This document shows, piece by piece, positions 7,070-58,235 of a DNA stretch of 64,000 nt. The translations under genes and the position numbers were made by a program. Every line of letters begins with the position of its first letter. The stretch's first letter is position 1. The notes under the pieces were generated by a model. It had not been told where the DNA came from. It searched no databases and worked only from the letters and a program-made list of their open reading frames with translations. Source of the stretch: a virus; the IMG/VR virus record IMGVR_UViG_3300027859_000890, positions 62,001 to 126,000 of that record; one strand, given 5' to 3'.

Positions 7070-7341
7070 CAGATACATTAACAAAAACTGAAGCAATAGG
7101 AAAGATTACAGCACTTGCAAAAGACATCGATGTCAAAGACACACTGGACTATAGTTTTTTGAATATGTCTGAAGATGATGCTTACGATATGGTTGCAAAT
7201 AACGTACTGACACAAATGTACGAAACACCAGAACAATACAGAGAAACAATTATGATGGCGAGTATGACTAAAATCCTTGTTGAAAGTCTTGTTTTGAAAG
7301 CTAGGATCCAATCACTTGAAAAAGCAGCCAGAGAAAGATAA
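7066..7341 (+). CDS. Hypothetical protein, 91 aa
   Basis: A helical acidic protein, MTDTLTKTEAIGKITALAKD at the start, ending in a short coiled-coil-like helix (LVLKARIQSLEKAARER). The ATG at 7066 overlaps the previous TGA and is preferred to an ATG 21 bases earlier. Its 3' end overlaps the radical SAM gene by 26 bases. Confidence 0.55.
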   Translation: MTDTLTKTEAIGKITALAKDIDVKDTLDYSFLNMSEDDAYDMVANNVLTQMYETPEQYRETIMMASMTKILVESLVLKARIQSLEKAARER

Positions 7342-11112: not shown

Positions 11113-11314
11113 TATTTTAGACATAACCCCAGGCGAAACTTATGCCTGCAAATATAAGTTAGGCGAGGACAAAGAAGAAAAGTTTGGACTAATTTTACTA
11201 CGTGATGTAGATCAAAAATTAGTTAAACTTCAGGATTTGTCCTCGTCAGAACAATTTGTTGTTTCATTTAATGACATTTGGGACGTTGATGAAGTGGAAT
11301 GGGTTGATGGCTAA
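11105..11314 (+). CDS. Small hypothetical protein, 69 aa
   Basis: MIDILDITPGETYACKYKLG then strands GLILLRDVDQKLVKLQDLSS: a small beta-barrel-like pattern. The ATG at 11105 is preferred to a TTG 9 bases earlier. Not recognised; coupled to both neighbours. Confidence 0.6.
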   Translation: MIDILDITPGETYACKYKLGEDKEEKFGLILLRDVDQKLVKLQDLSSSEQFVVSFNDIWDVDEVEWVDG

Positions 11315-12777
11315 TGCATTGCTTAATTTTGAGCAATGCTGTTCAACGCTCTCACGGTGGACATAGAATTGCAAGCCATTTAAGATATTTAGGTTGGGAT
11401 TGCGAAGTCCTTGACTATTGTCAAATCCTTGATAAAGAAACTATATTAGAGTTTCTAAGACAACGTATCAATAAACAAACAAAATTTATAGGCTTTAGCC
11501 ACATATTCTTATGGTGGCGTAAAGAATTTAAAGAAATTATGTCTTGGGTTAAAAATAATCACCCAGACATAATGATAATAAGTGGCGCACAAAACTTCTA
11601 TACAAAACAGAGCCAGCCGTTGGTTGATTATAACTTTGCAGGATATTCAGAATGGCAACTAGAAAAGTTTCTAAAATGGAAATTTAGTAACGGTAATCCT
11701 ATTGAATTAGTTAACGGCAATATAATTAATTGCCACAGTGATGGCGGGGCGGCACCTATGCGTGATCCTTTCATAAGATATCAAAAAAGAGATTATTTAA
11801 TGCCCTGGGAAATGGTAGGTATGGAATTTGCACGTGGTTGTAAATTTGCTTGTGCGTTTTGCGACTTACCTAATTTGGGAGTAAAAGGTGATTACACTAG
11901 AGATGTTAAAAGTGTTGAAGAATATCTGAAATATAATTATGATAACTTTGGTGTACACAAATATTTGTGTAGTGATGAAACATTCAACGATGCAACAGCA
12001 AAAATACAAAAATATGCTGAGGTAGTGCAAAAGCTAGATTTTACACCGTACTTTGTTGGATACATAAGACTTGATTTGTGGATTGCTAGACCACAAGATA
12101 GAGAATTTTTGGAAGCAATGAACTTTGTAGGACAATTCTATGGCATAGAAAGTTTTAATCACGATACAAGAAAAGCAGTAAAAAAAGGTATGCATCCTGA
12201 TAAAATAAAACAGGGGTTGCTTGATGTTCTAGATTTTTATAAAGGTAAATTATATAGAGGTACTGTTAGCTTAATAGCAGGTTTACCACACGAAACATTA
12301 CAAACTTTATACGAAACAAAGCAATGGATATTAAAAAATTGGATGCCTCAAAATGTCTATGTTAACGCATATCATATTGCTCCCCAACAGGATTCAGTAA
12401 AAATAAGTCATATTGATAACAATCTAACAAAATATGGTTATGAAGACACAGGATTACCTTCTCCGCACGAAAAACTTCAACTAGTTGGTAATAACATTGC
12501 AATGGGTACAGGACAAGATGCTTATCCACACGTAGTTTGGAAAAACAAACATATGACCTATGTACAGGCAAATAATTTTGCAGCCAGATTTCATCACTCA
12601 AACATAGCAAGCGGAATGAAAACTAGTGCGTGGTTGAATCCTGGTCAAGTTGTAACAAACAAACCTCTTAAAGAATTATTTGATGCACCTCAAGGTAGAA
12701 TTGTAGGTTGGTATAATCCTTTAAAGAAAGAGTTTCTTCCTAAATATATAGAAAAAAAGTTAGGACAATCATTCTAA
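11314..12777 (+). CDS. Radical SAM enzyme, cobalamin-binding-type N-terminus
   Basis: A 487-residue protein. Residues 1-130 form a Rossmann-like domain as in B12-binding radical SAM enzymes (LILSNAVQRSHGGHRIASHL; later DIMIISGAQNFY). The core cluster motif CKFACAFC gives Cys176, 180, 183. The C-terminal third is a separate domain. The family includes methyltransferases and ring-forming enzymes; no DxHxxG cobalamin motif is visible, so cobalamin use is uncertain. The start codon sits in a perfect 7-bp inverted repeat. It shares TAATG with the previous gene and lies 6.6 kb before the main radical SAM operon. Confidence 0.8.
   Translation: MHCLILSNAVQRSHGGHRIASHLRYLGWDCEVLDYCQILDKETILEFLRQRINKQTKFIGFSHIFLWWRKEFKEIMSWVKNNHPDIMIISGAQNFYTKQSQPLVDYNFAGYSEWQLEKFLKWKFSNGNPIELVNGNIINCHSDGGAAPMRDPFIRYQKRDYLMPWEMVGMEFARGCKFACAFCDLPNLGVKGDYTRDVKSVEEYLKYNYDNFGVHKYLCSDETFNDATAKIQKYAEVVQKLDFTPYFVGYIRLDLWIARPQDREFLEAMNFVGQFYGIESFNHDTRKAVKKGMHPDKIKQGLLDVLDFYKGKLYRGTVSLIAGLPHETLQTLYETKQWILKNWMPQNVYVNAYHIAPQQDSVKISHIDNNLTKYGYEDTGLPSPHEKLQLVGNNIAMGTGQDAYPHVVWKNKHMTYVQANNFAARFHHSNIASGMKTSAWLNPGQVVTNKPLKELFDAPQGRIVGWYNPLKKEFLPKYIEKKLGQSF
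11316..11339 (+). promoter_or_regulatory. Inverted repeat over the start of the 11314 gene
   Basis: GCATTGC, ten bases, GCAATGC: a perfect 7-bp stem, extendable by a T-A and a T-G pair. It begins within the ATG of the radical SAM gene, so folding would hide the initiation region unless ribosomes arrive from upstream. Confidence 0.45.
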
Positions 12778-17468: not shown

Positions 17469-18055
17469 AACTAAGAGAACTTTTCGAAGCGCCAGGCGAA
17501 ACAGTAGGTCTTATATTTGGAAGATTTAATCCGCCACATAAAGGTCACAAGGCAGCTTGGGAAATGGCAGCAAAAGAAACACATTGGTATGTAGGTACTA
17601 ATGCAGGAACAGTTGGTCCTAAAGATCCGCTGCCATCACAAGTAAAAGTTCTTGCAATGGAAACAATTATGCCTGAAGTATCAGAACACATTGTTTTCAG
17701 TCAAAGTTGGCTCACACTTGCAAGTGAGTTATATTCAAAGCATCCTAATGCAACTCTTGTTCTATTTACAGACGAAGCTTGGGTGCCAAAAACAATTGCA
17801 CAATACAATGGTCAAGAAGGTCCACACGGAACCTACAATTTCAAAGATATAGAAACAAAACCTACACCAAGATTAAGCAGTGCAACAGCATTGCGTAAAG
17901 CAGTATTAGACAATAGTCCAGAGGAGTTTGCTGATGCTGCTGGTGTTCCTGCTGATACTATTATTGATGTACCAGGTGAAAACATAACATTCTTTGATAT
18001 GGTTGCAAAGTACTTAGAACCACATAGAGAAAAACTACTTGCAAAAAAGAAGTAG
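17465..18055 (+). CDS. Nucleotidylyltransferase (HxGH family)
   Basis: A 196-residue protein of the cytidylyltransferase/NMNAT fold: GRFNPPHKGH at residues 19-28 carries the HxGH nucleotide-binding motif, and RLSSATALRKA at 137-147 is the ISSTxxR-like second motif. Likely transfers AMP or CMP to a phosphorylated substrate; NMN is one option. The N-terminus MKLRELFEAPG resembles a capsid-targeting peptide (L-F-E then A). A second HxGH protein is encoded at 31337. The 3' end carries the -35 and spacer of the next promoter. Confidence 0.75.
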   Translation: MKLRELFEAPGETVGLIFGRFNPPHKGHKAAWEMAAKETHWYVGTNAGTVGPKDPLPSQVKVLAMETIMPEVSEHIVFSQSWLTLASELYSKHPNATLVLFTDEAWVPKTIAQYNGQEGPHGTYNFKDIETKPTPRLSSATALRKAVLDNSPEEFADAAGVPADTIIDVPGENITFFDMVAKYLEPHREKLLAKKK

Positions 18056-18067
18056 TTGTTATATAAT
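18039..18067 (+). promoter_or_regulatory. Promoter of the radical SAM operon
   Basis: TTGCAA at 18039-18044, a 17-base spacer and a consensus TATAAT at 18062-18067. The ATG of the first gene follows only 5 bases later, so the predicted transcription start is at the start codon (leaderless). No other promoter of this type was seen until 28615. Confidence 0.7.
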
Positions 18068-18072
18068 ACATT

Positions 18073-19233
18073 ATGACTCACGGCTTTTTTCTAGCAAACA
18101 TCAAATCTTACCCCTTCGGACAAACAGCATTAGGCACTGAATTTATAGATCAAGGATTCAGTTTAGAAAATATGTTTGGGCATTTTGATGACTTTACATT
18201 TAGAAACTTTTATAATTTAAACAGAATAGATAAAATTAAGTGCGATACAAATTTTATTATGCTGTCTGTAAATATGCCTGTGACATATAAAATAAAATTA
18301 AGTTTTGACACAATACAAAAAATAAACAATGACACTAACACTTTCTTAGTTATGATAAGCATACTTGAAGGTGAAATGGATTATGCTAAAATACTAAAAG
18401 AACTTTCTAAACAGCGTATTAACAAAGAAAAAGTTATCATAGTAACAAGTTGTTATTCGCATTTAGAAAACCAGTTTGGCTTAAAATTTGTTTATATAGA
18501 TTATTGGGAAAGTTTTACAAGATATCATCAACGTTTTTTACCTAATGCAACAGACAGACGTGCAATTAATTTAGATGCACAAAAAAAGTTTTTGTGTTTG
18601 AATAGAAATCAAAAAGCACACAGGATTTGGTTTTATTTTAATTTATATAGAATGAAAATGCACAAGCAAAGTCATTCAAGTTATCATTTACCTATACTAG
18701 ATATACAAGAATACAATAGGATGGCCAGAAGTAGTTTTGTAATGAAATATATTCCCAGCAGTTTACATCCAGAATATCAACATTTTTTGAATCATACATA
18801 CGAAGGCGCAGTCTTAGATAAATTAAGTTCTGATCCTATTAATTATAATTCAACAATATATGATTATTACAACGATAGTCTGTTTAGTGTTGTTACTGAA
18901 AGTAGTTTTAGACATACTTTTCTCACAGAAAAAACATTCAAAGCAATTGTACACTGCCATCCATTTTATGTAATAGGCAACAAACAACATCATTGGCTAC
19001 TAAGAGAAAACGGTTATCATACATTTGAGGATTTCTTTGGCATAGAAGCAGTAGAAAACTTTGATCAAGCAAGTGCGTTGTTAAGTAACATTAAATACAC
19101 TGATATTAGTGAATATAGAAATAAATTAAATAAGGAAACAGTAGATAAATTATATAGTAACTATGACAACTTTTACAATAGACTCATTAGCTGGTTGGAC
19201 ATAGAAAAAAGATTGTTAAGAGCCACGAGGTAA
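18073..19233 (+). CDS. Glycosyltransferase-like protein heading the radical SAM operon
   Basis: A 386-residue protein. The C-terminal part reads SVVTESSFRHTFLTEKTFKA then HPFYVIGNKQHHWLLRENGY and FEDFFG: the pattern [VT]TE-x(n)-TEKTFK-x(3)-HPF-hydrophobic-G that I associate with GT10-like or related glycosyltransferase C-domains in marine phages and bacteria. The N-terminal half is not recognised. Being first in the operon suggests the radical SAM products are sugars or glycoconjugates, which is inference. Probably leaderless; two bases separate its stop from the consensus -10 logic of the next start only by a TAAATG junction. Confidence 0.5.
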   Translation: MTHGFFLANIKSYPFGQTALGTEFIDQGFSLENMFGHFDDFTFRNFYNLNRIDKIKCDTNFIMLSVNMPVTYKIKLSFDTIQKINNDTNTFLVMISILEGEMDYAKILKELSKQRINKEKVIIVTSCYSHLENQFGLKFVYIDYWESFTRYHQRFLPNATDRRAINLDAQKKFLCLNRNQKAHRIWFYFNLYRMKMHKQSHSSYHLPILDIQEYNRMARSSFVMKYIPSSLHPEYQHFLNHTYEGAVLDKLSSDPINYNSTIYDYYNDSLFSVVTESSFRHTFLTEKTFKAIVHCHPFYVIGNKQHHWLLRENGYHTFEDFFGIEAVENFDQASALLSNIKYTDISEYRNKLNKETVDKLYSNYDNFYNRLISWLDIEKRLLRATR

Positions 19234-20442
19234 ATGTCAGAGTTTAAAGAAAACTTTTGTATGGCGCCTTGGACACATATGAGCGTTTGGCAAACAGGAG
19301 ATGCGTATCCGTGTTGTATATATCATTGGGATATGCCTGTTGATAATATCAATCGCAGTGGACTAAAAGGTGCGTGGAACAGTAAAAAAATGCGTGAACT
19401 TCGTTTACGTATGCTTTCCAATGAGCCAAGCGAAGGTTGTGCTAAATGCACAAACTATGACAAGCAAGGTATTATTAGTTATAGACATAAGTTCAACACT
19501 GAGTATGATCATCACTACAATTTAGTCAAAACAACACAGGAAGATGGCACAGTAGATCAAATGAATTTGGCCTACTTTGATATTAGATTTAGCAACTTGT
19601 GCAATATGAAATGTAGAAGTTGTGGACCGCATTTCAGTAGTAAATGGTCTGAAGATTTAATAGGCAAGCCAGAAATAGTACAAATTAACCACCAAGATAT
19701 GTGGGAAGAAATAGAAGATGTTTTACCTAGCATCGAAGAAGTATACTTTACAGGCGGCGAAAGTTTGTTTATGCCACAGCATTATAGATTGCTAGATATG
19801 CTTATAGAGCGTGGACTCAAACCGAGACTGACATATAACAGCAACGCCACACGCCTAAGTCTTAAAGGCAAACACATAAAAGATTATTGGCAGCACTTTG
19901 ATAATATTTTTTATTGTGTAAGTTTAGACCAAGTAGAACGCAAAGCAGAATACACAAGAGCAGGACAAACTTGGGATACAGTGTTTACAAACTTGTGTTG
20001 GATACGTGATAATTTTGAACACAGTTATGATAAAGGTGTGGTTATACAACCAAACCCAACTATCAGTGCGTTGAATGTTGTTGACTTGCGTCATATTGTA
20101 AATTATCTGTTTGAACACAACATTCCTACTGACTATGATATTAATTTAAGTAATTTGTTGGTTGGTCCAGAATGGATGAGTTGTACAATATTGCCAGAAC
20201 AAATTAAAGCAAAAGCAAAAGAAAATATTGAATTACTCAAGCAAGATATTGATAAAAGAAAAATGTATCCTCAAAGAAGAGAATTTTTGCATAATGGACT
20301 CGACAACATTGTAAACTTTATGTATAATAGTGATGATACACATTTGATACCTGAATTTAGAGTACAGATGCAAAAAATGGATATGAAGCGTGGCGAAAAC
20401 TTTTTAAAGGTTTTTCCTGAACTAAAGGATTTGTATGTCTAG
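19234..20442 (+). CDS. Radical SAM enzyme A (N-terminal twitch type)
   Basis: A 402-residue protein. N-terminal auxiliary-cluster-like block: Cys9 in FCMAPW, Cys27-28, then GCAKC (Cys69, 72). Core cluster CNMKCRSC (Cys123, 127, 130), followed by CGP, and the SAM motif TGGES. The C-terminus ends in VFPEL near the last residues, a tail shared with the next gene. Close paralog of the 20435 product. Cleaves SAM to a 5'-deoxyadenosyl radical; the auxiliary cysteines suggest a second Fe-S cluster that may bind substrate or accept electrons. Confidence 0.9.
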   Translation: MSEFKENFCMAPWTHMSVWQTGDAYPCCIYHWDMPVDNINRSGLKGAWNSKKMRELRLRMLSNEPSEGCAKCTNYDKQGIISYRHKFNTEYDHHYNLVKTTQEDGTVDQMNLAYFDIRFSNLCNMKCRSCGPHFSSKWSEDLIGKPEIVQINHQDMWEEIEDVLPSIEEVYFTGGESLFMPQHYRLLDMLIERGLKPRLTYNSNATRLSLKGKHIKDYWQHFDNIFYCVSLDQVERKAEYTRAGQTWDTVFTNLCWIRDNFEHSYDKGVVIQPNPTISALNVVDLRHIVNYLFEHNIPTDYDINLSNLLVGPEWMSCTILPEQIKAKAKENIELLKQDIDKRKMYPQRREFLHNGLDNIVNFMYNSDDTHLIPEFRVQMQKMDMKRGENFLKVFPELKDLYV

Positions 20443-21643
20443 TGTAAAGGAAAACAAACATTTTTGTATGATGCCTTGGGTACATATGCATCTGTGGCCT
20501 GCTGGCTTTACATATCCTTGCTGTATGAGTGATCCAGATTATCCTATAGGCAACACACAAACACAAACTTTACAAGACGTTTGGAACGGCGATAAAATGC
20601 GTAAAATACGTTTGAATATGTTGTCAGGACAACCAAGTCAAGAATGTAGACGTTGTTATGAACTAGAAGAAAACGGTATGCAAACATTGCGTAACAGCAG
20701 TATCAATAACTTTTCAGAAAAACACTGGCAGAAAGTTATGAACACAGCTGAAGATGGCAGTGCTGGTGATGTAAATATGGCATATATGGATATACGTTTC
20801 AGTAATTTATGTAATTTGAAATGTCGTAGTTGTGGCCCACAGTTCAGCAGTAGCTGGTTTGAAGATCACAAACAAATGTATGGAGAACTTAATCATCCTA
20901 AAATATTACAAGTGCGTAAAGATATGACTAGTTTTATGGACGAACTTGATCCGTTATTAGAAAGTGTTGAACGTGTTTATTGGGCAGGTGGCGAGCCACT
21001 AATTACAAAAGAGCATTATCATATACTTGATAAATGGATTGATATGGGCAAGACAGATGTCAATATGGATTACACAACAAACTTTACACAAATGTATTAC
21101 AAAAAGAAAACAGCATTTGAATATTGGAATAAGTTTGAACACGTAAGAGTAGCAGGTAGTTTAGATGCTAACCACGCACGTGGAGAATATTTACGTAAGA
21201 ATATGATTTGGGATATAGTTGTACAAAACAGACGCACTATGCTAGAGCAGTGTCCACACGTATACTTTGAGATAACCCCCACAGTAAGCGTTTATAACGT
21301 GTTAAACCTACCAGATTTCCACAAAGAATGGATTGAAGAAGGACTATTAGAACCAGGTAACATAAGAATCAATATATTGCTTGATCCAACTTATATGAGA
21401 TTAAGTATATTACCAGAGGAAAAGAAAGATAGAATTAGGAAACGTTACGCAGAACATTTAGATTATTTGAAACAATTTAAGAATATAAATCACGTAAAGA
21501 ATGATTATGAAAGTATTTTAAATTTTATCAATGACGATAGGACTCAAGAAGTTAAAATGTTTTTGTTTAAAACATTCAAAGTAGACAAACTTAGACAAGA
21601 AAATGTGTTTAAGATATTTCCTGAATTAGAAGGTATCGCATAA
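20435..21643 (+). CDS. Radical SAM enzyme B (N-terminal twitch type)
   Basis: 402 residues, the same length as its upstream paralog. Cys11 in FCMMPW, Cys29-30, CRRC (71, 74); core CNLKCRSC (Cys126, 130, 133); SAM motif AGGEP; tail FKIFPEL. The shared length, motifs and tail suggest tandem duplication followed by divergence, probably giving enzymes that act on related substrates. Overlaps the preceding gene by 8 bases and the next by one (TAATG). Confidence 0.9.
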   Translation: MSSVKENKHFCMMPWVHMHLWPAGFTYPCCMSDPDYPIGNTQTQTLQDVWNGDKMRKIRLNMLSGQPSQECRRCYELEENGMQTLRNSSINNFSEKHWQKVMNTAEDGSAGDVNMAYMDIRFSNLCNLKCRSCGPQFSSSWFEDHKQMYGELNHPKILQVRKDMTSFMDELDPLLESVERVYWAGGEPLITKEHYHILDKWIDMGKTDVNMDYTTNFTQMYYKKKTAFEYWNKFEHVRVAGSLDANHARGEYLRKNMIWDIVVQNRRTMLEQCPHVYFEITPTVSVYNVLNLPDFHKEWIEEGLLEPGNIRINILLDPTYMRLSILPEEKKDRIRKRYAEHLDYLKQFKNINHVKNDYESILNFINDDRTQEVKMFLFKTFKVDKLRQENVFKIFPELEGIA

Positions 21644-23799
21644 TGGGATTTTTTGAGTACAAAGATCCGGATAGAGAAAAGCCAGACAAACCTACGTTTA
21701 GCGAAGATAAACACGTTGCGACAATGCAGGTTATACAGCAATACAGCAGACCTGTGCAAAAAGGCTTGCAAGAGCTTACCATTGAGTATGATGTAAATAG
21801 AAAAACAAAAGTATGTTTGTGTTTACTTCCAGAATGGGATCCTAGTTTTCCTCCTTACAATGTAGCAAAGTTAGCAAGTGCAATAAAACGTGCTGGCTAT
21901 GCTTGTAAAAGTTTTGATATAAACGTCGATAGTTACAGCAGATTTTTAAATGAGAAATGGAATATTCCATTTGATCCTTGGAATCCACTACGTGACTGGC
22001 ATTGGTACAAGGATGAATACTACAAAGATATACATCATCATTTGAAACCTATATTGCTTGAATACATTGATGAAATGGAAAAATTTCAACCAGATGTTGT
22101 AGGCTTTAGTTTATACTATTGTAATGAAGAACCTTGTAAGTGGATGGCAACAGAAATAAAAAAACGTATGCCAAATGTAAAAATAATAGTAGGAGGTCCT
22201 GCTACACACGCAAGTTATTACAAAGGCGAAGAAATATATGATTATGTTGTTAACGGTGAAGGCGAACAACCATTACTACTAATGCTTGCCAGTATTGAAG
22301 CAAAAAAGACTATCGAATACAATGAAGATGCTGTAAGTAAAATTGTTAGACAACCTGAGAATCAGCGTTACAATCTAAGCACACTGCCATTGCCTGATTA
22401 CAGTGACTTTGACTTCAGCAAGTATAAATTTCCTAATGGTGCTTTGTGTGAAATATCAAGAGGTTGCATTGCTAAATGTACTTTTTGTGAAGAGACACAT
22501 TTTTGGAAATACAGACAAAGAAATGCATTTAGCACGTTGAATGAAATTGAACATATGTACTATGAACACGGAACAAATGTGTTTTGGTTTATTGATAGTC
22601 TTGTAAATGGTAATCTCAATGAGCTACGTGGCTTTGTTAAAGGTGTAGCAGAAAAAGGTTTGGACATACATTGGACAGGCTATGCACGTTGTGATGGACG
22701 TATGGATGCTGAATATTTTAGAGATTTGAAAGCAGGTGGTTGCGAAGTTCTTAATTATGGTATTGAATCAGGCAGTCAAGTTGTGTTAGACGCAATGGAT
22801 AAAAAAGTAAAAGTAGAAGAAATGGAAGCAAACTTCCGTGATGGCTTTGCTGCTGGTGTTGATGCTATGACTAATTGGATTGTAGGTTTTCCAAACGAAG
22901 GTCCAAAAGAACTAGAAGAAACACTTACATTTTTATGGCGTATACGTAACCAAGGATTGATAGCAGTTAGTCAAGGCACAGGCTTCAGCGTTGGTGTTGA
23001 TACTATTGTAGGACAAAACTTTGAAAAGTTTGAGCTAATGCCTTTTTATTATTACGACCACTGGATAAGAAAAGATCTTACAGCAAGCATTGTACATAAA
23101 CTAATTAAAATGAAAAGTTTTAGTATTTTTACAGACTTCTTACAAACAGATAAAATTTGTAGTTTGCCTACAAGACACAGTTTACGTGAAAAACATTATA
23201 AGATTGAATTCAATGATCCAAATAGATTGAATACTCTTGAGTATGATTTTGAAGAATTCAATTATAATATTATTACGCCAGGACTAGGCAACTTTGCAGA
23301 TAGTCTTGTAAATGAGATATGGCCTTTCTTACGTATACTTTGGAGAACAAAAGGTGGATACAAACTTTGTTTGAAGTTCCGCAAAGAATGGGAATACGAA
23401 GAATGGGGAAACAGAAATGCTGCTCCGTTGGATGCACAATATGATTTTGAAATAGATGATGAAGGAAATTGGACTGCTGACTTTTGGTGGGATTATCAAC
23501 AAGATCCATATGATACTTGGGATGACAAATATTGGATTGAAGATGGCAGAGAAAAAATGAGTGTAGATCCGTGGAGCCCTGTGTGGGCAATTATGGACTT
23601 TACTAGGGATAATGGAAACGCAGTAATACGTGCTAGAAAACTTGCGTGGAAAGGTGACCCAGACAAAAAAGGCAAAGACCCTTACAATGCTTTTGACAAC
23701 GATGTATTTAGACAGCACCAAAAAGAGTTTTTTAGATTTAGGGATACTGATTTGAGTTTCAAGTATGCTTGGCAAGGCAAAGGACATTGGAATGTCTGA
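21643..23799 (+). CDS. Class-B-like (B12-binding domain) radical SAM enzyme
   Basis: A 718-residue protein, the largest enzyme of the operon. Residues 55-230 form a cobalamin-binding-like Rossmann domain (LPEWDPSFPPYNVAKLASAI, then PDVVGFSLYY and KIIVGGPATHA). The radical SAM core follows with CIAKCTFC (Cys275, 279, 282) and YGIESGSQ. The last 250 residues are tryptophan-rich and unrelated to known domains I recall. Class B enzymes often methylate unreactive carbons; cobalamin use is likely but not proved, as the DxHxxG loop is absent (common in this class). Confidence 0.85.
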   Translation: MGFFEYKDPDREKPDKPTFSEDKHVATMQVIQQYSRPVQKGLQELTIEYDVNRKTKVCLCLLPEWDPSFPPYNVAKLASAIKRAGYACKSFDINVDSYSRFLNEKWNIPFDPWNPLRDWHWYKDEYYKDIHHHLKPILLEYIDEMEKFQPDVVGFSLYYCNEEPCKWMATEIKKRMPNVKIIVGGPATHASYYKGEEIYDYVVNGEGEQPLLLMLASIEAKKTIEYNEDAVSKIVRQPENQRYNLSTLPLPDYSDFDFSKYKFPNGALCEISRGCIAKCTFCEETHFWKYRQRNAFSTLNEIEHMYYEHGTNVFWFIDSLVNGNLNELRGFVKGVAEKGLDIHWTGYARCDGRMDAEYFRDLKAGGCEVLNYGIESGSQVVLDAMDKKVKVEEMEANFRDGFAAGVDAMTNWIVGFPNEGPKELEETLTFLWRIRNQGLIAVSQGTGFSVGVDTIVGQNFEKFELMPFYYYDHWIRKDLTASIVHKLIKMKSFSIFTDFLQTDKICSLPTRHSLREKHYKIEFNDPNRLNTLEYDFEEFNYNIITPGLGNFADSLVNEIWPFLRILWRTKGGYKLCLKFRKEWEYEEWGNRNAAPLDAQYDFEIDDEGNWTADFWWDYQQDPYDTWDDKYWIEDGREKMSVDPWSPVWAIMDFTRDNGNAVIRARKLAWKGDPDKKGKDPYNAFDNDVFRQHQKEFFRFRDTDLSFKYAWQGKGHWNV

Positions 23800-25000
23800 T
23801 ACTTATTGCGTATATCCATTCATAAATGTGCATACAAACACTGACGGCAGATGTAAATTATGTTGTCACGTTTATGGCGAAGATTATATAAAAGTAGATG
23901 GCAAAGATGCTGTGCTTGGCAAAACAAATTGGAACAATATTTGGAACAGCAAGTATATGCTAGATGTACGTGCAAACTTACTTTCAGGAAAGAAAGTAAA
24001 AGAGTGCAATAGATGTTACGAGCACGAAGAGAAAGGTTTACAAAGCAGTAGGCAATGGGCAAATGAAAATTATAAACAACCATTATTGCATAGCAACCCT
24101 ACTCACCTGGAACTTCGGCTCGGCAACAAATGTAATTTAAAGTGCAACAGTTGCTGGAGTGTAAGTAGTAGTCAAATATACAAAGAACGTAAAAAAATAT
24201 TAGCAAACGAAACTGTGCCGAAATGGTTAGATGATCAATGGCAACACGAAATAAAAAGTGTAGAATCTTTTGATTGGCAGTGGTATGAAACACAAGAGTT
24301 TCGTGACTTTGTAGACCAAGTTGCACCAACATTAGAACGTTTGTATATGACAGGTGGTGAGCCAACTATGATTGATGCTAATCAGTATGTGCTTGACAAA
24401 CTTGTAGAAGCAGGTAATACAAAATGTCACGTTGCTTGGACAACAAATATGACAACGTGGCCTGAAGGATTTTATGACAAACTAGATTTTTTTGACAGCA
24501 GCGAAGTGCAGATGAGCATAGATGGTTATGGCGATCACAATATGTACATACGCTATCCAACTGATTGGAAAAAAGTAGAAGAAAATTTTACAAAAGCAAT
24601 GACATTGCCTGAAAAAGTACAACTAAAAATTTACTTTGTATATCAAGCGTGGAATGTATTTGATGTAGATAGGCTAATACGTTGGCTAGAAGAACGACAA
24701 ACAAGACGTGTAGACTTTGTGCCTATATTCTTAGAACATCCAGATCAACTACACAGTTGCGTATGGCCAAGAGAAATACAGCACAAAATTATAGGTAAAT
24801 TATTTACATTGCAAACAACAATGCATAGAGATCCTGTTCAAAGAATCATAAACTACACACAAAACACTAATAAATATTCTGCTGAGAATATAAACAGGAT
24901 GAAACAATTCATTTCAATCAACGACAGATATAGGAAATACAAGTTTGCAGATGTGTTTCCGTTACTAAATTATATATTGGAAGATGTATGCGAGACATAA
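23792..25000 (+). CDS. Radical SAM enzyme C (N-terminal twitch type)
   Basis: A 402-residue protein from the ATG at 23792, chosen because the conserved block begins right after (MSDTYCVYPF) and it overlaps the previous stop. Auxiliary cysteines 6, 21, 24-25, 72, 75; core CNLKCNSC (Cys114, 118, 121); SAM motif TGGEP; tail FADVFPLL. The same architecture as enzymes A, B and D with a clearly divergent sequence. Confidence 0.9.
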   Translation: MSDTYCVYPFINVHTNTDGRCKLCCHVYGEDYIKVDGKDAVLGKTNWNNIWNSKYMLDVRANLLSGKKVKECNRCYEHEEKGLQSSRQWANENYKQPLLHSNPTHLELRLGNKCNLKCNSCWSVSSSQIYKERKKILANETVPKWLDDQWQHEIKSVESFDWQWYETQEFRDFVDQVAPTLERLYMTGGEPTMIDANQYVLDKLVEAGNTKCHVAWTTNMTTWPEGFYDKLDFFDSSEVQMSIDGYGDHNMYIRYPTDWKKVEENFTKAMTLPEKVQLKIYFVYQAWNVFDVDRLIRWLEERQTRRVDFVPIFLEHPDQLHSCVWPREIQHKIIGKLFTLQTTMHRDPVQRIINYTQNTNKYSAENINRMKQFISINDRYRKYKFADVFPLLNYILEDVCET

Positions 25001-25980
25001 AGGCTATAATACCTGCAAAAGATAAATGGGTCAGTTTGGTATGGCAAGTCAACGACTGGTGTAACTTCCGTTGTACGTATTGTAGTGAATGGAATTGGGC
25101 TGGACGTAACAAAAACGAAGATGACATTGATCTGATTGTTACAACATTAGAACGCATTATGCTACACTACAAAGACAAAGGATACAAATATTTTAAACTT
25201 TATCTCAGTGGTGGTGAGCCTACTTTTTGGAAAGCAATTATTCCTGTTGTAGAAAAGTTTAGAGAAATAGCAGAATGGCCTGGTAGTTGTGTAGGTATAA
25301 ACACAAACTTCAGTAGGCCTATATCTTGGTGGGAAAAGCATCATCATTTGTTTGAAGATGTAGTTGCAAGTTATCACGCAGAATGGACAAAAGAAGAAAA
25401 GTATTTACAAACTTATAAGTTTTTACAAGACAAGAAAAATTATCTTTGCAGTAGAATTATGATGCATCACAAATACTTTCAGCAGTGTGTGGATTTTGGA
25501 GATAAAATTAAAGACACTTGCGATAATTATATGATTGAATATGCGCCAGTGTATGATGAACTACGTCCTAGCACTGATCCATATTTTTATGAAGAACAGT
25601 GGCAAATGGATTTCTTCAAAACACGCAGTAGTGCAAGACAGCAAGTTATACCAATACACAAAGAACCAAACTATGCTTGGGCAAAAGTAATGCACACAGA
25701 TGATACTGTTACAGATATTGATACAAATGCAATCATTACAGAAGGTAAAAACTTTTTTAAAGGTTGGACTTGTAACATACACGAAAGTTTACACATACAT
25801 CCTAACGGTAGGATACAACAAGCAAGTTGCGGTGTTGGACCAATAGTTGGAAATATTGTACAAGGTAAGTTTGATATAAAATTAAACGAAGCAATTGTTT
25901 GTCCTAAAACACATTGTCACTGTGCAGCCGATTTCAACATAAGTAAAGCGAGGCCTGAAAATGTCAACCTCATCGCCTGA
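24988..25980 (+). CDS. Radical SAM enzyme, core-first with C-terminal Cys cluster
   Basis: A 330-residue protein that differs from its neighbours: it has no N-terminal twitch block. The core CNFRCTYC (Cys25, 29, 32) comes at once, then SGGEP, and a C-terminal SPASM-like cysteine set (WTCNIHESLHIHPNGRIQ, then SCG and CPKTHCHC) that could hold an auxiliary cluster. The HPNG turn is typical of SPASM-type domains that read 'G-x-(V/I)' after a cysteine. Coupled to both neighbours by overlaps. Confidence 0.88.
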   Translation: MRDIKAIIPAKDKWVSLVWQVNDWCNFRCTYCSEWNWAGRNKNEDDIDLIVTTLERIMLHYKDKGYKYFKLYLSGGEPTFWKAIIPVVEKFREIAEWPGSCVGINTNFSRPISWWEKHHHLFEDVVASYHAEWTKEEKYLQTYKFLQDKKNYLCSRIMMHHKYFQQCVDFGDKIKDTCDNYMIEYAPVYDELRPSTDPYFYEEQWQMDFFKTRSSARQQVIPIHKEPNYAWAKVMHTDDTVTDIDTNAIITEGKNFFKGWTCNIHESLHIHPNGRIQQASCGVGPIVGNIVQGKFDIKLNEAIVCPKTHCHCAADFNISKARPENVNLIA

Positions 25981-27286
25981 TACATTTTGCTACCACGCTA
26001 TGCAAAGTTTTAGCACTCATCCTCACGGACGTAGCAGGCCTTGTTGTTTTAGTAGACAGGAAACAAGAAAGTTTATGCCTGGTATAAACTTCCAAGATAC
26101 TCCAGAATACAATGATAAAGTAAATGCAGCTCAAAACATCAGCGAATTTATCAATGATCCTGAGATAATGAAAATTAGAGAAGGCTTGTTGAAAGGAGAA
26201 CAACCAAAAGGTTGTGCTGAATGTTTCAAGTTAGAAAAAGATGGTATACGTAGTTTTAGGCAAACTTCAAATGAAATATATGAAGAACATATAGATAAAA
26301 GTCTAAAGAACGTAAGTGAAGATGGCTTTTTAGATCCAAAAGCAATTACATACTTGGACATTAGTTTAGGCAATGTTTGTAATTTAAAATGTAGAAGTTG
26401 TAATCCTTGGGCTAGTCATAGATGGATTGAAGAAGGTCCTACTGTGCCACACACAGATTGGGATGACACAGCATACAAAATTGGTAAACTAAGCAGTACA
26501 GATCCTTGGTTTATCAAAGCGTTTGCAGAAGACTTTTTTGATGACGTTTTACCAAATGTAAAAATAATAAATTTTATTGGTGGCGAACCTTTGGTTGTCA
26601 ATGAACACTATACTTGGTTAGAACACATAATAGAAATGGGCTGGAGCCAAAACATTGAGTTACACTACAACACAAATGGCACAACTATACCAGATAGGTT
26701 GCTAGATATTTGGGATAAGTTTAGAGGTGTAGTTCTAAGTTTAAGTATTGATGCTACAGAAGATTTAGCATACTATGTTAGATATCCAAGCAAGTGGAAA
26801 ATAATAAAACGCAATATAGAAAAATTAAAACAATTCAGTAAAACTCGCACAGGAGTAATTGTTCATACGCACGTAACTCTAAGTGTAATGAACTTGCACG
26901 ACTTGCCTAATGTTTTGAATTGGTGTAAAGAAAACTATGATACTTGGCACTACACTTGGGATTGGGGTAATCACGGATATCAAAATTGCTTACCGCATTT
27001 CAATATTGTAGAATATCCACGCAACCAACACATAAGAAACTTGCCAGAAGAGCGTAAAAAACTTATGAACAATATGTTAGAACAGCAACACGCAAAGTTT
27101 CAAAATGCTGGCTTGCCAGATTGGGAACAGTGGGCAGTAGATGCAATACTAGGATTGAAAAATCAATTAAACGAACAACCCAACGAAGGTGATTGGCAAA
27201 AGTACATTAATAATACTAGAGCAAGTGATAGGTTTAGAAAAGTAAACATCATAGATTATATTCCTTGGATGGAGGAATATATGTAA
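25961..27286 (+). CDS. Radical SAM enzyme D (N-terminal twitch type)
   Basis: A 441-residue protein. Auxiliary block: Cys10 in FCYHAM, Cys28-29, GCAEC (85, 88). Core CNLKCRSC (Cys140, 144, 147) followed by NPW; SAM motif IGGEP. The C-terminus (FRKVNIIDYIPWMEEYM) aligns with the tail of the other paralogs. Last radical SAM gene of the operon; overlaps the SGNH-like gene at TAATG. Confidence 0.9.
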   Translation: MSTSSPDTFCYHAMQSFSTHPHGRSRPCCFSRQETRKFMPGINFQDTPEYNDKVNAAQNISEFINDPEIMKIREGLLKGEQPKGCAECFKLEKDGIRSFRQTSNEIYEEHIDKSLKNVSEDGFLDPKAITYLDISLGNVCNLKCRSCNPWASHRWIEEGPTVPHTDWDDTAYKIGKLSSTDPWFIKAFAEDFFDDVLPNVKIINFIGGEPLVVNEHYTWLEHIIEMGWSQNIELHYNTNGTTIPDRLLDIWDKFRGVVLSLSIDATEDLAYYVRYPSKWKIIKRNIEKLKQFSKTRTGVIVHTHVTLSVMNLHDLPNVLNWCKENYDTWHYTWDWGNHGYQNCLPHFNIVEYPRNQHIRNLPEERKKLMNNMLEQQHAKFQNAGLPDWEQWAVDAILGLKNQLNEQPNEGDWQKYINNTRASDRFRKVNIIDYIPWMEEYM

Positions 27287-27909
27287 TGTACATTGTTGCA
27301 TTTGGCTGCAAAGACTTGGTTGGAAATAAAAATGCAGCATATTTTTTATCAAAAAAATTAGATTGTAATTATATAGATTGCACTACAGAAACTACAAGTC
27401 CACAAAGTATATTTAGAATAGTTACAAAGTATGCAAGTGAACACGAAGACTTCCTTCCTATCATAGGTTGGAGCAATACAGCAAGTTTACAACTTAGAAC
27501 AATATACAGTCGTTTAGAATACACAGGCTTCCACGATCCAAACTATTGGAACTACAGTGCTAATGGCAAAAACTTAAAATTAGAAAACCGTAGACTTGAT
27601 AGATTCAAAGATGTTTTGTTTGATGAACACTTGGTCAATATACGTTGGTGTAATATTGTTGTTAGTTTACAAGAATTCTTAAAAAGTTACAAAATAGATT
27701 ATGTAATGTACAATGTTGAAAATGCTATTGACTGGAATGCAAATACAATGCATATGATAAAATTTATAGATAGATCAAAATACATAGGTGTAGAAAATCC
27801 TAAGGCTAATATAAAAAAGTATGTAAAGAAACTAGGATATAATTTTGCCACAGACGAAGGTCAAAAATGTATTGCTGGTTTACTAAAAGATAAATTGGAT
27901 AGCAAATGA
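27286..27909 (+). CDS. SGNH-like paralog without the catalytic serine
   Basis: A 207-residue protein. The N-terminus MYIVAFGCKDLVG corresponds to block I of its neighbour (VAIGCSHTYG) but has Lys where the nucleophilic Ser should be. The block IGWSNTASLQLR matches IGWTSPFRMELR of the next gene and LQWTSPGRFDYL of the 35493 gene, supporting common descent. It may be a binding or scaffolding partner rather than a hydrolase. The ATG at 27286 is chosen by overlap with the previous stop. Confidence 0.6.
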   Translation: MYIVAFGCKDLVGNKNAAYFLSKKLDCNYIDCTTETTSPQSIFRIVTKYASEHEDFLPIIGWSNTASLQLRTIYSRLEYTGFHDPNYWNYSANGKNLKLENRRLDRFKDVLFDEHLVNIRWCNIVVSLQEFLKSYKIDYVMYNVENAIDWNANTMHMIKFIDRSKYIGVENPKANIKKYVKKLGYNFATDEGQKCIAGLLKDKLDSK

Positions 27910-28628
27910 CAACTATAGTTGCAATTGGTTGCAGTCATACATATGGCACAAGGCTTGATGGTATTCAAAGCAGTAGTCTATTCAATATTAATAATAACTT
28001 TGCTGCCTTGCTTGCAAAAAGAAACAATTTTAAAATAGCACATTTAAGTCAGCCAGGTGGTAGTAATGAATTTATTCATAGACAAACAGTTGATTGGTTA
28101 ACAAGACATAGAAAACGTGACGAAGATTATATCGTGTTAATTGGTTGGACCAGTCCGTTTAGAATGGAACTTAGATATCCAGAGGATTCAGATGTTGAAC
28201 ACGCTGCTCTAAGCAAAATAGATATGAAATACTTTCCTGTTAGCATAGGACAGGAACCAGAGATTGCACAAACAAAACAGTTCAAAAATATACACAGCAT
28301 ATTGCCTATTATGTTTGAAGAAACTAAGGAATATGATATGTGGGCAAGTTATGCACTAGCCACACAGCGTATGCTACAAAAAAACAAAGTAAAATTTTTG
28401 ATGTATAATACTTGCGAAGAAATAAAAATTACGCAAAATAATTCAAGTATTATTAATTTGTTTGATACAATAACTTACCTTAATCCTACTACAAAAGATG
28501 CTAATTTTTTGTATTGGGGATTGAAAAACGGGTATGAAAAGACAGAATGTTGGCATTTGAAACTAGATGCACACATTGCTTGGAGTGAATATTTAGAAAA
28601 AGAGTGTAAAAAACTTGACTACTTTTGA
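27906..28628 (+). CDS. SGNH/GDSL-type hydrolase-like protein
   Basis: A 240-residue protein. Block I GCSHTYG (Ser11 as likely nucleophile), block II-like GGSNEF, block III-like IGWTSPFR, and near the C-terminus WHLKLDAHIAW, whose Asp/His could complete the site. Such enzymes remove or transfer acyl groups on sugars and lipids. Last gene of the radical SAM operon; a new promoter begins within its 3' end (28615). Confidence 0.65.
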   Translation: MTTIVAIGCSHTYGTRLDGIQSSSLFNINNNFAALLAKRNNFKIAHLSQPGGSNEFIHRQTVDWLTRHRKRDEDYIVLIGWTSPFRMELRYPEDSDVEHAALSKIDMKYFPVSIGQEPEIAQTKQFKNIHSILPIMFEETKEYDMWASYALATQRMLQKNKVKFLMYNTCEEIKITQNNSSIINLFDTITYLNPTTKDANFLYWGLKNGYEKTECWHLKLDAHIAWSEYLEKECKKLDYF

Positions 28629-33955: not shown

Positions 33956-35077
33956 ATGCAAGACTTAATTTTTACAAATGTAGAGGACTTCTTACGATCT
34001 CAGCAAAAGCGTATAGGCTTTGCTTGTAAGTATCTACATTTCAATCAGAATCAAAAACCTAAAATATTAGAGGAAATACAGCGTCCACTTACAGAGAAAT
34101 GTACAACCGTTGCTTGGCTAAATAGACAAAGTAAGGATGTTGCCGAACAAAGACTGTGGGACATAATGGAACACAATGCGGCAGCCGCAAAAAGGTTAGT
34201 AGAGTATGTGGGAAGCCTTCCTCCAGAACTTCGTATGGTCCGACTGGGTAGCAATCAGCTTCCTTGTGCTACCGAGCCTAGCTGGCGCTATTTTTGGTCT
34301 TTGCCAGATGTGGTGGCATACGGGGAGAAAGCATACGCAAAAGTGGGAGACGCAGCCAGACGCTTGGATGTTAGGCTCTCAATGCACCCAGGACAGTTTA
34401 CGGTCCTTGCAAGTGACAATCCAGAAATCGTCGAAAGGAGCATAGAAGAATTTGAATATCACGCCACTCTCATACGGTGGATGGGATACGGTAAGAAGTT
34501 CCAGGACTTCAAAAACAACGTCCACATCTCCGGCAGACAAGGTCCAGCCGGTATCAAAGCCGTCCTTCCGCGCCTCTCGCAGGAGGCAAGAAACACTATT
34601 ACAATCGAGAACGACGAAGTCAGCTGGGGACTCGAAGCCAGCCTTGAGCTTGCAGACGATCTCGCTTTGGTGCTAGACATACATCACCACTGGGTGAAAA
34701 CAGGAGAATACATTGAACCAGATGACGACCGTATTGGAATTATTATCGATAGTTGGCGTGGTGAGCGTCCTGTCATTCACTATTCTTTATGCCGTGAGGA
34801 TAACCTACAGAATGCTTCGGCAAGTGTACGACCGGACTTGGACACGTTACTTGAATCAGGACACAAAAAACAAAAACTAAGAGCACACAGTGATTACTGT
34901 TGGAATGATGCTTGCAACGAATGGGCATTGTCGCATTGGGAATGGGCAGACATTATGGTAGAAGCTAAGATGAAAAACTTGGCAAGCGGACAACTTTACA
35001 GTATGACTGAAGAGTCTAAAGAAATGATGGATTTTACATCGTTTGTAAAAGACAACAGTGATTTAATGGAAGCATAA
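33956..35077 (+). CDS. uvsE: UV damage endonuclease
   Basis: A 373-residue protein of the UvsE/UVDE TIM-barrel family: IGFACKYL near the start, RLSMHPGQF (His144), the metal block TIENDEVSWG (Glu218, Asp220) and LDIHHHW (241-246), then HYS. It nicks 5' to UV photoproducts, useful to a phage in sunlit water. The start at 33956 is fixed by the promoter. Bases of about 34190-34680 are clearly richer in G+C than the flanks within the same gene (32 of 60 in 34501-34560), with different codon choice: a sign of recent mosaic exchange. Confidence 0.92.
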   Translation: MQDLIFTNVEDFLRSQQKRIGFACKYLHFNQNQKPKILEEIQRPLTEKCTTVAWLNRQSKDVAEQRLWDIMEHNAAAAKRLVEYVGSLPPELRMVRLGSNQLPCATEPSWRYFWSLPDVVAYGEKAYAKVGDAARRLDVRLSMHPGQFTVLASDNPEIVERSIEEFEYHATLIRWMGYGKKFQDFKNNVHISGRQGPAGIKAVLPRLSQEARNTITIENDEVSWGLEASLELADDLALVLDIHHHWVKTGEYIEPDDDRIGIIIDSWRGERPVIHYSLCREDNLQNASASVRPDLDTLLESGHKKQKLRAHSDYCWNDACNEWALSHWEWADIMVEAKMKNLASGQLYSMTEESKEMMDFTSFVKDNSDLMEA

Positions 35078-35084: not shown

Positions 35085-35339
35085 ATGAAAAGTAATTTTA
35101 TATCCTCTATGTATGCAAGAACAAAAATGCAATCACCAACACAAGAAAAAAATCCTAATAGGGTGCTTGGTGGACTAAAAGGTCAAGGTGTAAACAGTTT
35201 TAGTATGTTAGGCGAAGATGGTATTGAAAAAGAAATACCAACACAAGCATATGTACAAGCTCTTGAAGAAAAATTAAGAACACAAGACTCACGTATTGCA
35301 GTTTTAGAAAAACAAATTAGGAGACTATCAAATGGTTAA
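35085..35339 (+). CDS. Small coiled-coil protein, 84 aa
   Basis: A basic start, a glycine-rich middle (RVLGGLKGQGVNSF) and a C-terminal coiled coil (ALEEKLRTQDSRIAVLEKQI). Possibly a virion or assembly factor, judged only from the late motif before it. Confidence 0.55.
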   Translation: MKSNFISSMYARTKMQSPTQEKNPNRVLGGLKGQGVNSFSMLGEDGIEKEIPTQAYVQALEEKLRTQDSRIAVLEKQIRRLSNG

Positions 35340-35496
35340 AAATTGGATTAAGAAAAGATTAGAAGAAAAATCAACACTCGATGGAGTACTAATGGTGGCA
35401 GCAGGAGCCGCAATCATTATTTTTTCACCACTAACAAAATTAATTGCTTATGGTGCAATCGCTTACGGTGCTTGGACAATCTATAGACAGGGATGA
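35332..35496 (+). CDS. Small membrane protein, 54 aa
   Basis: ATG at 35332 overlapping the previous stop. Reads MVKNWIKKRLEEKSTLDGVL then a hydrophobic helix with VAAGAAIIIF and LIAYGAIAYGAW. It is ATGA-coupled to the next gene. Function unknown. Confidence 0.55.
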   Translation: MVKNWIKKRLEEKSTLDGVLMVAAGAAIIIFSPLTKLIAYGAIAYGAWTIYRQG

Positions 35497-36179
35497 AGAT
35501 AGCTGCCATTGGTTGTAGTTTTACTAACTACGTTTGGCCAACATACGCAGATATACTGCAAGCTGATAGATACGGTTTGTCGGGCATAGGCAACGAACGT
35601 ATATTCTATACATTATGTCATTTATATAAAACAGAACAGTTGCATTTGTATGATGCAGTTGTACTTCAATGGACATCGCCAGGTAGATTTGATTACCTTA
35701 CCAAAGACGGATGGACTTTCAATGATGGCAATATAGCATTCAGTGAAGAAAACAAACACATTTGGAAAAAAATTAAAGAATGGTATAACGAAGATTACGA
35801 GTACGATAAATCTGAGAATTATATACACAGTGCAAAAGCAATTTGTGATTCTATAGGTATAAAACACTATCATATGTCAATGGTGCATTTAGAAGACTTT
35901 GTTGACTTTGCAGATCTACATAGAAAGTATCCAGGCAAATATAGATTCAAATATGCTCCGTGGATCAATAAACCATTTTTAGATGAACATCCAGATATTC
36001 CTGCTCATTTAGATATAGCAGAAGTTGTTGCAGAAAACATAGGCGCCGAAATAAGCGACTTGCTACGTACGAAGTGTGAAAAATTTCATAAAAAAATTAT
36101 GAAAGGAATGGATTTTGCAAGTGTAGAACAAATGTACGATTCACATTTTCCATATAGGCATATCACTACTGGCAGTTAG
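35493..36179 (+). CDS. SGNH/GDSL-type hydrolase-like protein
   Basis: A 228-residue protein. Block I GCSFT (Ser9), block II SGIGNERI, block III LQWTSPGRFDYL and C-terminal HPDIPAHLDIA with the Asp-x-x-His-like pair. Third member of the family found at 27286 and 27906, but 7 kb from the radical SAM operon. Its 3' end overlaps the convergent zinc-finger gene by 39 bases. Confidence 0.65.
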   Translation: MKIAAIGCSFTNYVWPTYADILQADRYGLSGIGNERIFYTLCHLYKTEQLHLYDAVVLQWTSPGRFDYLTKDGWTFNDGNIAFSEENKHIWKKIKEWYNEDYEYDKSENYIHSAKAICDSIGIKHYHMSMVHLEDFVDFADLHRKYPGKYRFKYAPWINKPFLDEHPDIPAHLDIAEVVAENIGAEISDLLRTKCEKFHKKIMKGMDFASVEQMYDSHFPYRHITTGS

Positions 36180-36428
36180 ATTCCAAACTTTCTTTCTGTT
36201 TACGCCTTGTTTTTGTGCAAAACGTTTAGCATCACAGTTTTCACATACGTGAAAATAATTATTACTTAATCTTTTAGGATCCATTTTGCCCCTTTCTCTC
36301 GTAAATTCTTTTTCACAATTATCGCATCTAAATACAACCATTGTTTTTTTACGGTTGTATGTGTGTTGTTTACCTAGTTTACTACGGCGCATATGCCAAG
36401 TATCAATCAAATATTCTTTAATATACAT
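36141..36428 (-). CDS. Zinc-finger protein on the minus strand
   Basis: A 95-residue protein with CDNC (35, 38) and CENC (62, 65): paired CxxC knuckles about 24 residues apart, with a basic linker. It resembles small phage zinc-binding proteins; DNA or RNA binding is likely. One of only four genes on this strand. No ribosome site is evident; starts at Met13 or Met30 are possible. A TATAAT lies 16 bases upstream on this strand. Confidence 0.55.
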   Translation of the reverse strand: MYIKEYLIDTWHMRRSKLGKQHTYNRKKTMVVFRCDNCEKEFTRERGKMDPKRLSNNYFHVCENCDAKRFAQKQGVNRKKVWNLTASSDMPIWKM

Positions 36429-36461
36429 AACTATATTTACATTAAGATTATAAAAAGAAGC

Positions 36462-36469
36462 GATAAATA
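36462..36469 (+). promoter_or_regulatory. Late promoter core for the Fe-S carrier gene
   Basis: GATAAATA, 15 bases before the ATG at 36485, with AAAGGA between them. Confidence 0.55.
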
Positions 36470-36484
36470 TTAGAAAGGAACACG

Positions 36485-36844
36485 ATGAGCATACTTACTT
36501 TAACCCCAGCAGCAGAGAAACAGATAGATCTTTTAAGTGAAGAGAACGAATGCTATGGCATTACACTAAACATAAAGGGCGGTGGTTGTGCGGGTTTTGA
36601 GTATGATTGGGGTACAATAGGTGCGCCAAACGAACTAGAAGAGGGCGATACAGTAGTAAAAACTGCAAATGGCTGTGCTTTTGTAGTAGGTTCACATAGT
36701 TTAATGTTCCTAATTGGAACAGAAGTTGATTACGTAAAAAGTTTAGTAGGATCAAACTTTGAAATCCGCAATCCTAATGCTCATAGTAGCTGTGGTTGTG
36801 GCGTAAGTGTAAACTTTGATATGGATAAGATACCACATTTTTAA
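36485..36844 (+). CDS. A-type iron-sulfur carrier (IscA/HesB/ErpA family)
   Basis: A 119-residue protein with the three conserved cysteines: Cys35 in GGGCAGF, Cys103 and Cys105 in SSCGCG. It carries and hands over Fe-S clusters. Related genes occur in T4-like cyanophages, sometimes near tail genes. In this genome it could feed the radical SAM enzymes or the ferredoxin, though it sits at the head of the tail-fibre block behind a late promoter. Confidence 0.88.
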   Translation: MSILTLTPAAEKQIDLLSEENECYGITLNIKGGGCAGFEYDWGTIGAPNELEEGDTVVKTANGCAFVVGSHSLMFLIGTEVDYVKSLVGSNFEIRNPNAHSSCGCGVSVNFDMDKIPHF

Positions 36845-36858
36845 AGATAGGATAAAAA

Positions 36859-57324: not shown

Positions 57325-58235
57325 AAGAACTATGGGTAGAAAAATATCGTCCAAAGACAGTGGATGGTTATGTATTTAGAGATGATGCACAACGCAATCA
57401 AGTAAAAACTTGGATAAAAGATAAAACTATTCCACATTTACTATTCAGCGGCAATGCAGGTATTGGTAAAACAACACTTGCAAAATTGTTATTTAATGAA
57501 TTAGATACAAACCCATTAGATATATTAGAAATAAATGCAAGTCGTACAAATTCAGTAGATGATGTGCGTGATAAGATTGTTGCATTTGTGCAGATGATTC
57601 CGTTTGGTGACTTCAAAGTTGTATTGCTAGATGAGGCTGATTATTTGTCGCCAAACGCACAGGCAGCACTACGTGGTGTTATGGAAGAATATCACAGCAC
57701 AGCAAGATTTATTTTGACTTGTAACTATCCAAACAGAATTATTCCAGCGATACACAGTAGATGTCAAGGCTTTCATATTGCAAAAATTGATCAAACAGAG
57801 TTTACTGCTAGAGTTGCAGAAATACTAATTACAGAAGGCGTAACTCCAGACTTAGATGTGCTAGACACATATGTAAAAGCAACGTATCCAGATTTACGTA
57901 AATGCATAAATATGGTACAGATGAATTCAGTCGAGGGGAAATTAGTTTCACCACAAGAAGGGGACACTGGCGAAAGTGATTGGAAACTGGATATGGTGGA
58001 ACTGTTCAAAGCAGGTAAAATACACGATGCACGTAAATTGTTGTGTGGTACTGTGAGAGCAGAAGAAATGGAGGAAATATATCGCTGGCTGTATGATAAT
58101 ATTGAATTGTTCGGAACAGATGAACAACAAGATCAAGCAGTGCTAATTATTAAGCAAGGTTTGGTAGATCATACATTGGTAGTAGATCCAGAAATAAACT
58201 TAGCGGCTACATTAATTAGACTAGGAGCCTTATGA
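57321..58235 (+). CDS. Clamp-loader large subunit (T4 gp44-like)
   Basis: 304 residues. [14 protein letters not shown] at the start is the RFC/gp44 signature; Walker [10 protein letters not shown] at 44-52, Walker B DEAD at 104-107, and SRCQGF (146-151) the SRC motif for the neighbouring subunit. It loads the sliding clamp gp45, which in T4 also activates late transcription. The ATG at 57321 overlaps the previous TGA. The gp62 and gp45 partners are not in this window. Confidence 0.93.

Follow-up and report, generated by a model that had tools for sequence, protein, structure and literature searches.

Several phages are known to carry more than one gene for radical S-adenosylmethionine (SAM) enzymes. 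The Campylobacter phages CP220 and CPt10 have 11-12 such genes and an interchangeable module of five radical SAM genes, two nucleotide-sugar transferase-like genes and an amidinotransferase gene, and a role in anaerobic fitness has been proposed for the radical SAM genes of these phages (PMC2853527). Radical SAM cassettes (12 genes) have been reported in marine T4-like phages (PMC5332604), and a host-recognition cluster with radical SAM genes in pelagimyophages (PMC7029224), so that multi-radical-SAM modules in T4-like phages are already known (PMC2853527, PMC5332604, PMC7029224). Here we analysed a window of 64,000 nucleotides from the 134 kb virus record of an uncultured marine giant phage (IMG/VR record IMGVR_UViG_3300027859_000890, referred to as G000), in which nine plus-strand open reading frames (ORFs), A to I (18073-28628), all overlap or abut, and six of them encode radical SAM enzymes. 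This number had initially been taken to exceed what a phage would need for one reaction; it is not unique, in view of the gene counts of CP220 and CPt10 (PMC2853527) and of relatives of this phage with up to 21 radical SAM domains; what is unusual is the architecture of the enzymes and the scale of the arrays in the relatives. Conserved gene order, old co-inherited paralogues and retained cysteines support the view, already put forward in the initial annotation, that the operon is one multistep system, and we lean towards a carbohydrate-tailoring pathway that would work by stepwise radical oxidation with optional methylation.

The locus resembles those of CP220 and CPt10 in that these T4-like phages combine a multi-radical-SAM module with sugar-transferase-like genes, and amidinotransferase homologues occur near some of the arrays described below. 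However, the radical SAM proteins of CP220 do not belong to NF033640, the family of four of the operon enzymes; their similarity is confined to the core and weak, and with a best score of 25 bits to the NF033640 profile the CP220 module was rejected as a homologous system at the family level. The CP220 genes tested included neither a GT10-like gene nor an SGNH gene. The marine T4-like cassettes likewise have multiple radical SAM genes near glycosyltransferases in myophages, but in the relevant parts of those reports the genes appear without an operon, family or mechanism (PMC5332604, PMC7029224). Gene content, folds, cysteine ligands, synteny and selection are established here. The Vibrio phages K566 and K567 have one cluster of four NF033640-like enzymes (two above the cutoff) and GT8 genes; they differ in that the relationship is distant (about 22-27% identity), the glycosyltransferases are of other kinds, and D, F and the GT10-like gene were not recognised. 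A gene annotated as PagP lies near the NF033640/GT8 cluster of K566 (L051), an annotation that Pfam did not confirm.

Composition of the operon

The nine gapless or overlapping genes of the initial annotation were all recovered as ORFs at the coordinates given, but the positions it gave for the radical SAM cores are gene starts; the CxxxCxxC motif of B, for instance, lies at residues 123-130, about nt 19600-19623. Promoter-like matches are common in the window (77 observed, 57 expected), but the sigma-70-like promoter proposed ahead of A (TTGCAA-17-TATAAT, 18039-18067, plus strand) has a -10 box (18062-18067) that is retained in all 15 relatives examined; its -35 box sits within the coding end of the preceding gene. 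A further promoter proposed at 28615 did not stand out.

Six radical SAM enzymes had been predicted, and PF04055 matches were found in B to G; those of B, D, E, F and G exceed the gathering score, and that of C falls below it, yet C has the best score to NF033640 (N_Twi_rSAM, twitch domain-containing radical SAM protein; curated cutoff 170 bits). The whole-protein scores to this model are 357 bits for B (19234-20442), 404 for C (20435-21643), 308 for E (23792-25000) and 319 for G (25961-27286). The frame of E is open from 23765 in its longest reading, and the start conserved among relatives is 23792, as initially called. The auxiliary cysteines precede the core in B, C, E and G and follow it in F, and D is of the cobalamin type, which agrees with the earlier description. 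We compared NF033640 proteins of viral contigs and of Vibrio phage K566, 122 in all after removal of redundancy; the three core CxxxCxxC cysteines are present in 122 and the auxiliary four in 121. The ratio of nonsynonymous to synonymous substitutions (dN/dS) of the radical SAM genes is about 0.01-0.11 in close pairs, a rough estimate given that dS is often near saturation. From these sequence features the enzymes look active and under selection.

When the PDB was searched with a profile built from 18 NF033640 proteins, the N-terminal ~80 residues matched the C-terminal twitch domain of BtrN (PDB 4m7t), and the remainder matched other radical SAM cores. Profile positions 5-78 align to BtrN 183-259 with the C-x17-C...CxxC cysteines in register. 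BtrN catalyses the two-electron oxidation of 2-deoxy-scyllo-inosamine, an aminocyclitol (PMC9012708), and its auxiliary cluster has four cysteine ligands (PMC9012708, PMC6231123). The operon enzymes thus share with BtrN a radical SAM core and a twitch domain with the same four-cysteine spacing, but the identity is low and the twitch precedes the core instead of following it as in BtrN, so that the architecture is BtrN-like but permuted. The comparison suggests that these enzymes may work as BtrN does, and their proposed chemistry is modelled on it. B, C, E and G are far above the cutoff of NF033640, as is the product of a gene outside the operon (7316-8572), but the model has no assigned function and does not cover the conserved nine-gene operon, the old positional paralogues or the arrays with as many as 21 radical SAM domains.

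The fourth gene, D (21643-23799), encodes a B12-binding radical SAM enzyme in which both PF02310 (38.6 bits) and PF04055 (55.4 bits) exceed the cutoff. B12 methyltransferases are among the named models and PDB entries closest to it, and every score to a named NCBIfam model is far below cutoff; judged by sequence, D is probably a B12-dependent C-methyltransferase. It is cleanly absent in eight loci, six of which show a direct C-ATGA-E junction, and is therefore an optional step in the relatives. F (24988-25980) is a radical SAM enzyme with a cysteine cluster at its C-terminus (PF04055, 30.5 bits); it has no close named family, and a search of 50,697 phage records gave no match.

The glycosyltransferase-like character ascribed to A (18073-19233) is supported by its predicted fold. 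Pfam gave no GT10 match and no sequence family was found, but the AlphaFold model (mean predicted local distance difference test score, pLDDT, 89.7; alignment of 25 relatives) matched in Foldseek GT10 fucosyltransferases first (7yro, mango FucT13, E 1.8e-4; also 2nzw) and other GT-B enzymes next. An E..(T)EK motif, a candidate for the C-terminal donor-binding motif of GT10 enzymes, is conserved, and N177, H183, R184, E276, E286 and K287 are invariant in the alignment of relatives. The modelled GT-B fold is secure; because the template modelling (TM) scores to GT10 structures are only 0.38-0.48, GT10 is given here as the nearest family and not as a demonstrated membership. Of the two SGNH proteins that had been predicted, I (27906-28628) is an SGNH-fold esterase or acyltransferase by model and motifs: its AlphaFold model (pLDDT 92.3) matched CE2 carbohydrate esterases and TesA in Foldseek, and the GCSHT, GGSN and DxH motifs are kept with S, G, N and H intact (alignment of 16). 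H (27265-27909) aligns with the SGNH type, but the catalytic Ser and His positions are lost in an alignment of ten relatives and family searches gave no match; this degenerate protein is probably not catalytic.

Outside the operon, the plus-strand gene at 7316-8572 (228 bits) is the fifth NF033640 gene of the phage, and a second B12-type radical SAM gene lies at 11314-12777 on the same strand (PF04055 37.5 bits, weak PF02310), whose product also matches NCBIfam B12 radical SAM families. The whole record has nine radical SAM domains, five of them in NF033640 proteins.

Conservation of the operon and larger arrays in relatives

With C as the query, a scan of viral contigs gave 42 loci, in counts that include near-duplicates. 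B and C lie side by side in 31 of them and A-B-C are contiguous in 25, usually followed by E, F, G and SGNH genes, with or without D between C and E. A separate scan with D gave 24 loci, most of them on contigs already found with C; scans with A recovered close relatives only because A diverges fast. The conserved neighbourhood that the initial annotation expected in other phages is therefore present, and neither scattered single genes among these phages nor degraded core cysteines, which it had named as evidence to the contrary, were found. The arrangement exceeds chance, as dozens of contigs share it and purifying selection acts on it. In a tree of the 122 NF033640 proteins, the members at positions B, E and G each fall into a single clade, and those at C very nearly do, so that the paralogues predate the spread of the operon. 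C is among the most conserved positions. In contigs of the window type, the radical SAM proteins are about 65-90% identical to those of the window, compared with 34-43% for A, 26-29% for H and 36-45% for I.

Solitary NF033640 genes are found in Bacteroidota, Bdellovibrionota, Paenibacillus, Beijerinckia and other bacteria. A few bacterial genomes (L076, L077) have an NF033640 gene of the C-like kind next to an F-like gene. Bacterial neighbourhoods, being mostly solitary or mixed, were rejected as a clue to the substrate. In contigs from Elusimicrobia metagenome-assembled genomes (L085, L090), NF033640-type domains, several in tandem, occur in very long frames that open with TPR-like repeats.

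The related phage records are metagenome contigs and mostly incomplete. Thirty were chosen by their clamp loader, and NF033640 is above the cutoff in 14, so the trait is accessory. Radical SAM domains number 20 in 36.8 kb in G012 (L238, L239), and among G050 and G042 there are 21 in 170 kb and 19 in 165 kb. NF033640 matches at G042:31854-32921 and G050:37975-38895 each contain one in-frame TGA, which may reflect neighbouring frames, decay or recoding. In eleven more distant loci (L038-L048) the order of the C, E, F and G relatives varies, and their usual neighbours are tail-fibre and glycosyltransferase-like genes. Pfam confirmed beside the distant arrays genes for UDP-glucose/GDP-mannose dehydrogenase, sugar C-methyltransferase, sulphotransferase, carbamoyltransferase, DegT aminotransferase and PIG-L deacetylase; carbamoyltransferase is found mostly in array records, yet also in G049, a record without a radical SAM gene. 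Amidinotransferase-like genes lie near arrays (L242:15755-16813, minus strand) and upstream of the operon in several loci (L013, L018 and L026 among them), and match the gene of the CP220 module at about 24-25% identity. A nucleosidase-family gene (PF01048, L240:16382-16930) inside one radical SAM array could scavenge 5'-deoxyadenosine; a nucleosidase for methylthioadenosine/S-adenosylhomocysteine in that role was rejected as a general feature, as PNP_UDP_1 was found in one record only (G028).

Proposed pathway and rival explanations

The reaction types, carbohydrate substrate, location and purpose of the pathway are what we infer. The core clusters of B, C, E and G would cleave SAM, and the resulting 5'-deoxyadenosyl radical would abstract a hydrogen from the substrate; the N-terminal auxiliary cluster could then take the second electron, giving a two-electron oxidation whose outcome may be a ketone from an alcohol, a desaturation or a crosslink. 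D would optionally methylate by B12 radical chemistry, and F would perform a further radical step. A may transfer the resulting or an accompanying sugar, and I may remove or move an ester group, perhaps with H as a non-catalytic partner. The product would most likely be a glycan or glycolipid on the surface of the infected cell, or else a glycan of the virion, and would affect adsorption or superinfection.

The direction towards glycans or glycolipids, taken already in the initial annotation, is strengthened by the GT10-like fold of A, the sugar-modifying genes beside distant arrays, the BtrN-like domain and Vibrio phage K566, in which the genes for NF033640 enzymes are interleaved with two GT8 genes (above the cutoff) and one weak GT4-like gene. 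Radical SAM clusters adjoin glycosyltransferases in three phage groups, those of K566 and CP220 among them. Furthermore, the faster divergence of A, H and I fits transfer and ester steps that would track a changing partner. Several observations weigh against a carbohydrate substrate. The window operon contains no sugar-nucleotide enzyme. Epimerase genes within 5 kb of radical SAM genes are not enriched across the records (6 observed, 6.9 expected), and their mean distance to radical SAM genes is shorter (p 0.017), a weak effect; because of this outcome the sugar reading is favoured and not proven. Twitch and SPASM domains are also found in peptide-modifying enzymes (PMC6231123), the bacterial relatives are mostly solitary, with one (Paenibacillus) in what looks by eye like an acyl carrier protein (ACP)/ketosynthase-like cluster, and no member has an established reaction or product.

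An alternative, which we hold to be unlikely, is that the target of the radical SAM enzymes is a peptide or a protein, for example one of the tail-fibre or curli-like kind, and that A glycosylates the same protein. The SPASM/twitch enzymes SkfB and SuiB act on peptides (PMC6231123), the distant arrays start directly behind tail-fibre-like genes, and the phage has a curlin-repeat gene; however, the window operon is away from tail fibres, Pfam reported no PqqD/RRE-type domain, no family model for ribosomally synthesized and post-translationally modified peptides (RiPPs) reached its cutoff, and the operon is gapless with no small ORF between its genes. The initial claim that a precursor-peptide gene is missing holds within this gapless operon and reaches no further than it. 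We consider it quite improbable that the product is a small soluble compound, similar to an aminocyclitol or an antibiotic, that would alter the host or rivals. Neither an exporter nor a resistance gene was noticed in the operon, and the fast-changing A and I suggest a variable partner, even though BtrN, the best match of the auxiliary domain, belongs to butirosin biosynthesis, some arrays have amidinotransferase- and carbamoyltransferase-like genes, and the Paenibacillus relative lies in the cluster mentioned above.

Both radical SAM enzymes and GT-B glucosyltransferases are employed by phages to modify DNA, and a QueD-like PTPS gene lies at 30482 in the window. It is nevertheless very unlikely that the enzymes hypermodify the DNA or RNA of the phage and that A is a DNA glucosyltransferase, as GT10 enzymes are the best fold matches of A, T4-type DNA glucosyltransferases are absent among the matches listed, and no hydroxymethylase was noticed in the partial record. 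The phage has further metabolic genes, those for cytochrome oxidase subunits among them, and could therefore be thought to have gained the operon genes piecemeal as general metabolic boosters, in line with the role proposed for the Campylobacter phage genes (PMC2853527). The fixed order, the one promoter, the ancient co-inherited paralogues and the adjoining glycosyltransferase point instead to one pathway, and leave this explanation with hardly any probability.

Other genes of the phage and implications

The clamp loader of the phage is nearest to those of PA5oct-type jumbo phages (55% identity), a difference from the marine T4-like phages with radical SAM cassettes. COX2 (33989-34729) and COX1 (35234-36892) in record G000 (L154:13989-16892) were confirmed by Pfam; inspection by eye places a Cox11-like gene between the two. 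A class I/II aminotransferase (G000:5977-7170, minus strand; PF00155) resembles 5-aminolevulinate synthase by eye, and a GAPDH-like gene (G000:18338-19300) was also recognised by eye. An A-type iron-sulphur (Fe-S) carrier (window 36485-36844), a bacterial ferredoxin (window 58232-58573) and a NifU-like domain (G000:28839-29225) are encoded as well. The carrier was found in 12 of 20 related records with no array or 1-2 NF033640 genes and in 12 of 30 array-carrying records; being at least as common without an array, it is not array-specific, and a dedicated Fe-S supply for the array was rejected.

Phage radical SAM genes have so far been reported mostly in lists of auxiliary genes without a pathway. 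The fixed order, one promoter, old positional paralogues, an optional step and fast-changing terminal enzymes make a single pathway testable, and the Vibrio phages K566 and K567, sequenced phage records that carry relatives, may give a culturable entry. A broader possibility, which we put forward tentatively and hold to be somewhat doubtful as a whole, is that many uncultured marine jumbo phages share a modular pathway which can grow from six radical SAM enzymes to about twenty and which, with a permuted relative of BtrN, makes during infection a heavily oxidised and methylated glycan of a new class, or some other product. Should a surface sugar be the substrate, jumbo phages would rebuild the surface of the host or virion in the oxic ocean by radical chemistry that is sensitive to oxygen, and a permuted auxiliary-cluster architecture would be added to radical SAM enzymology.

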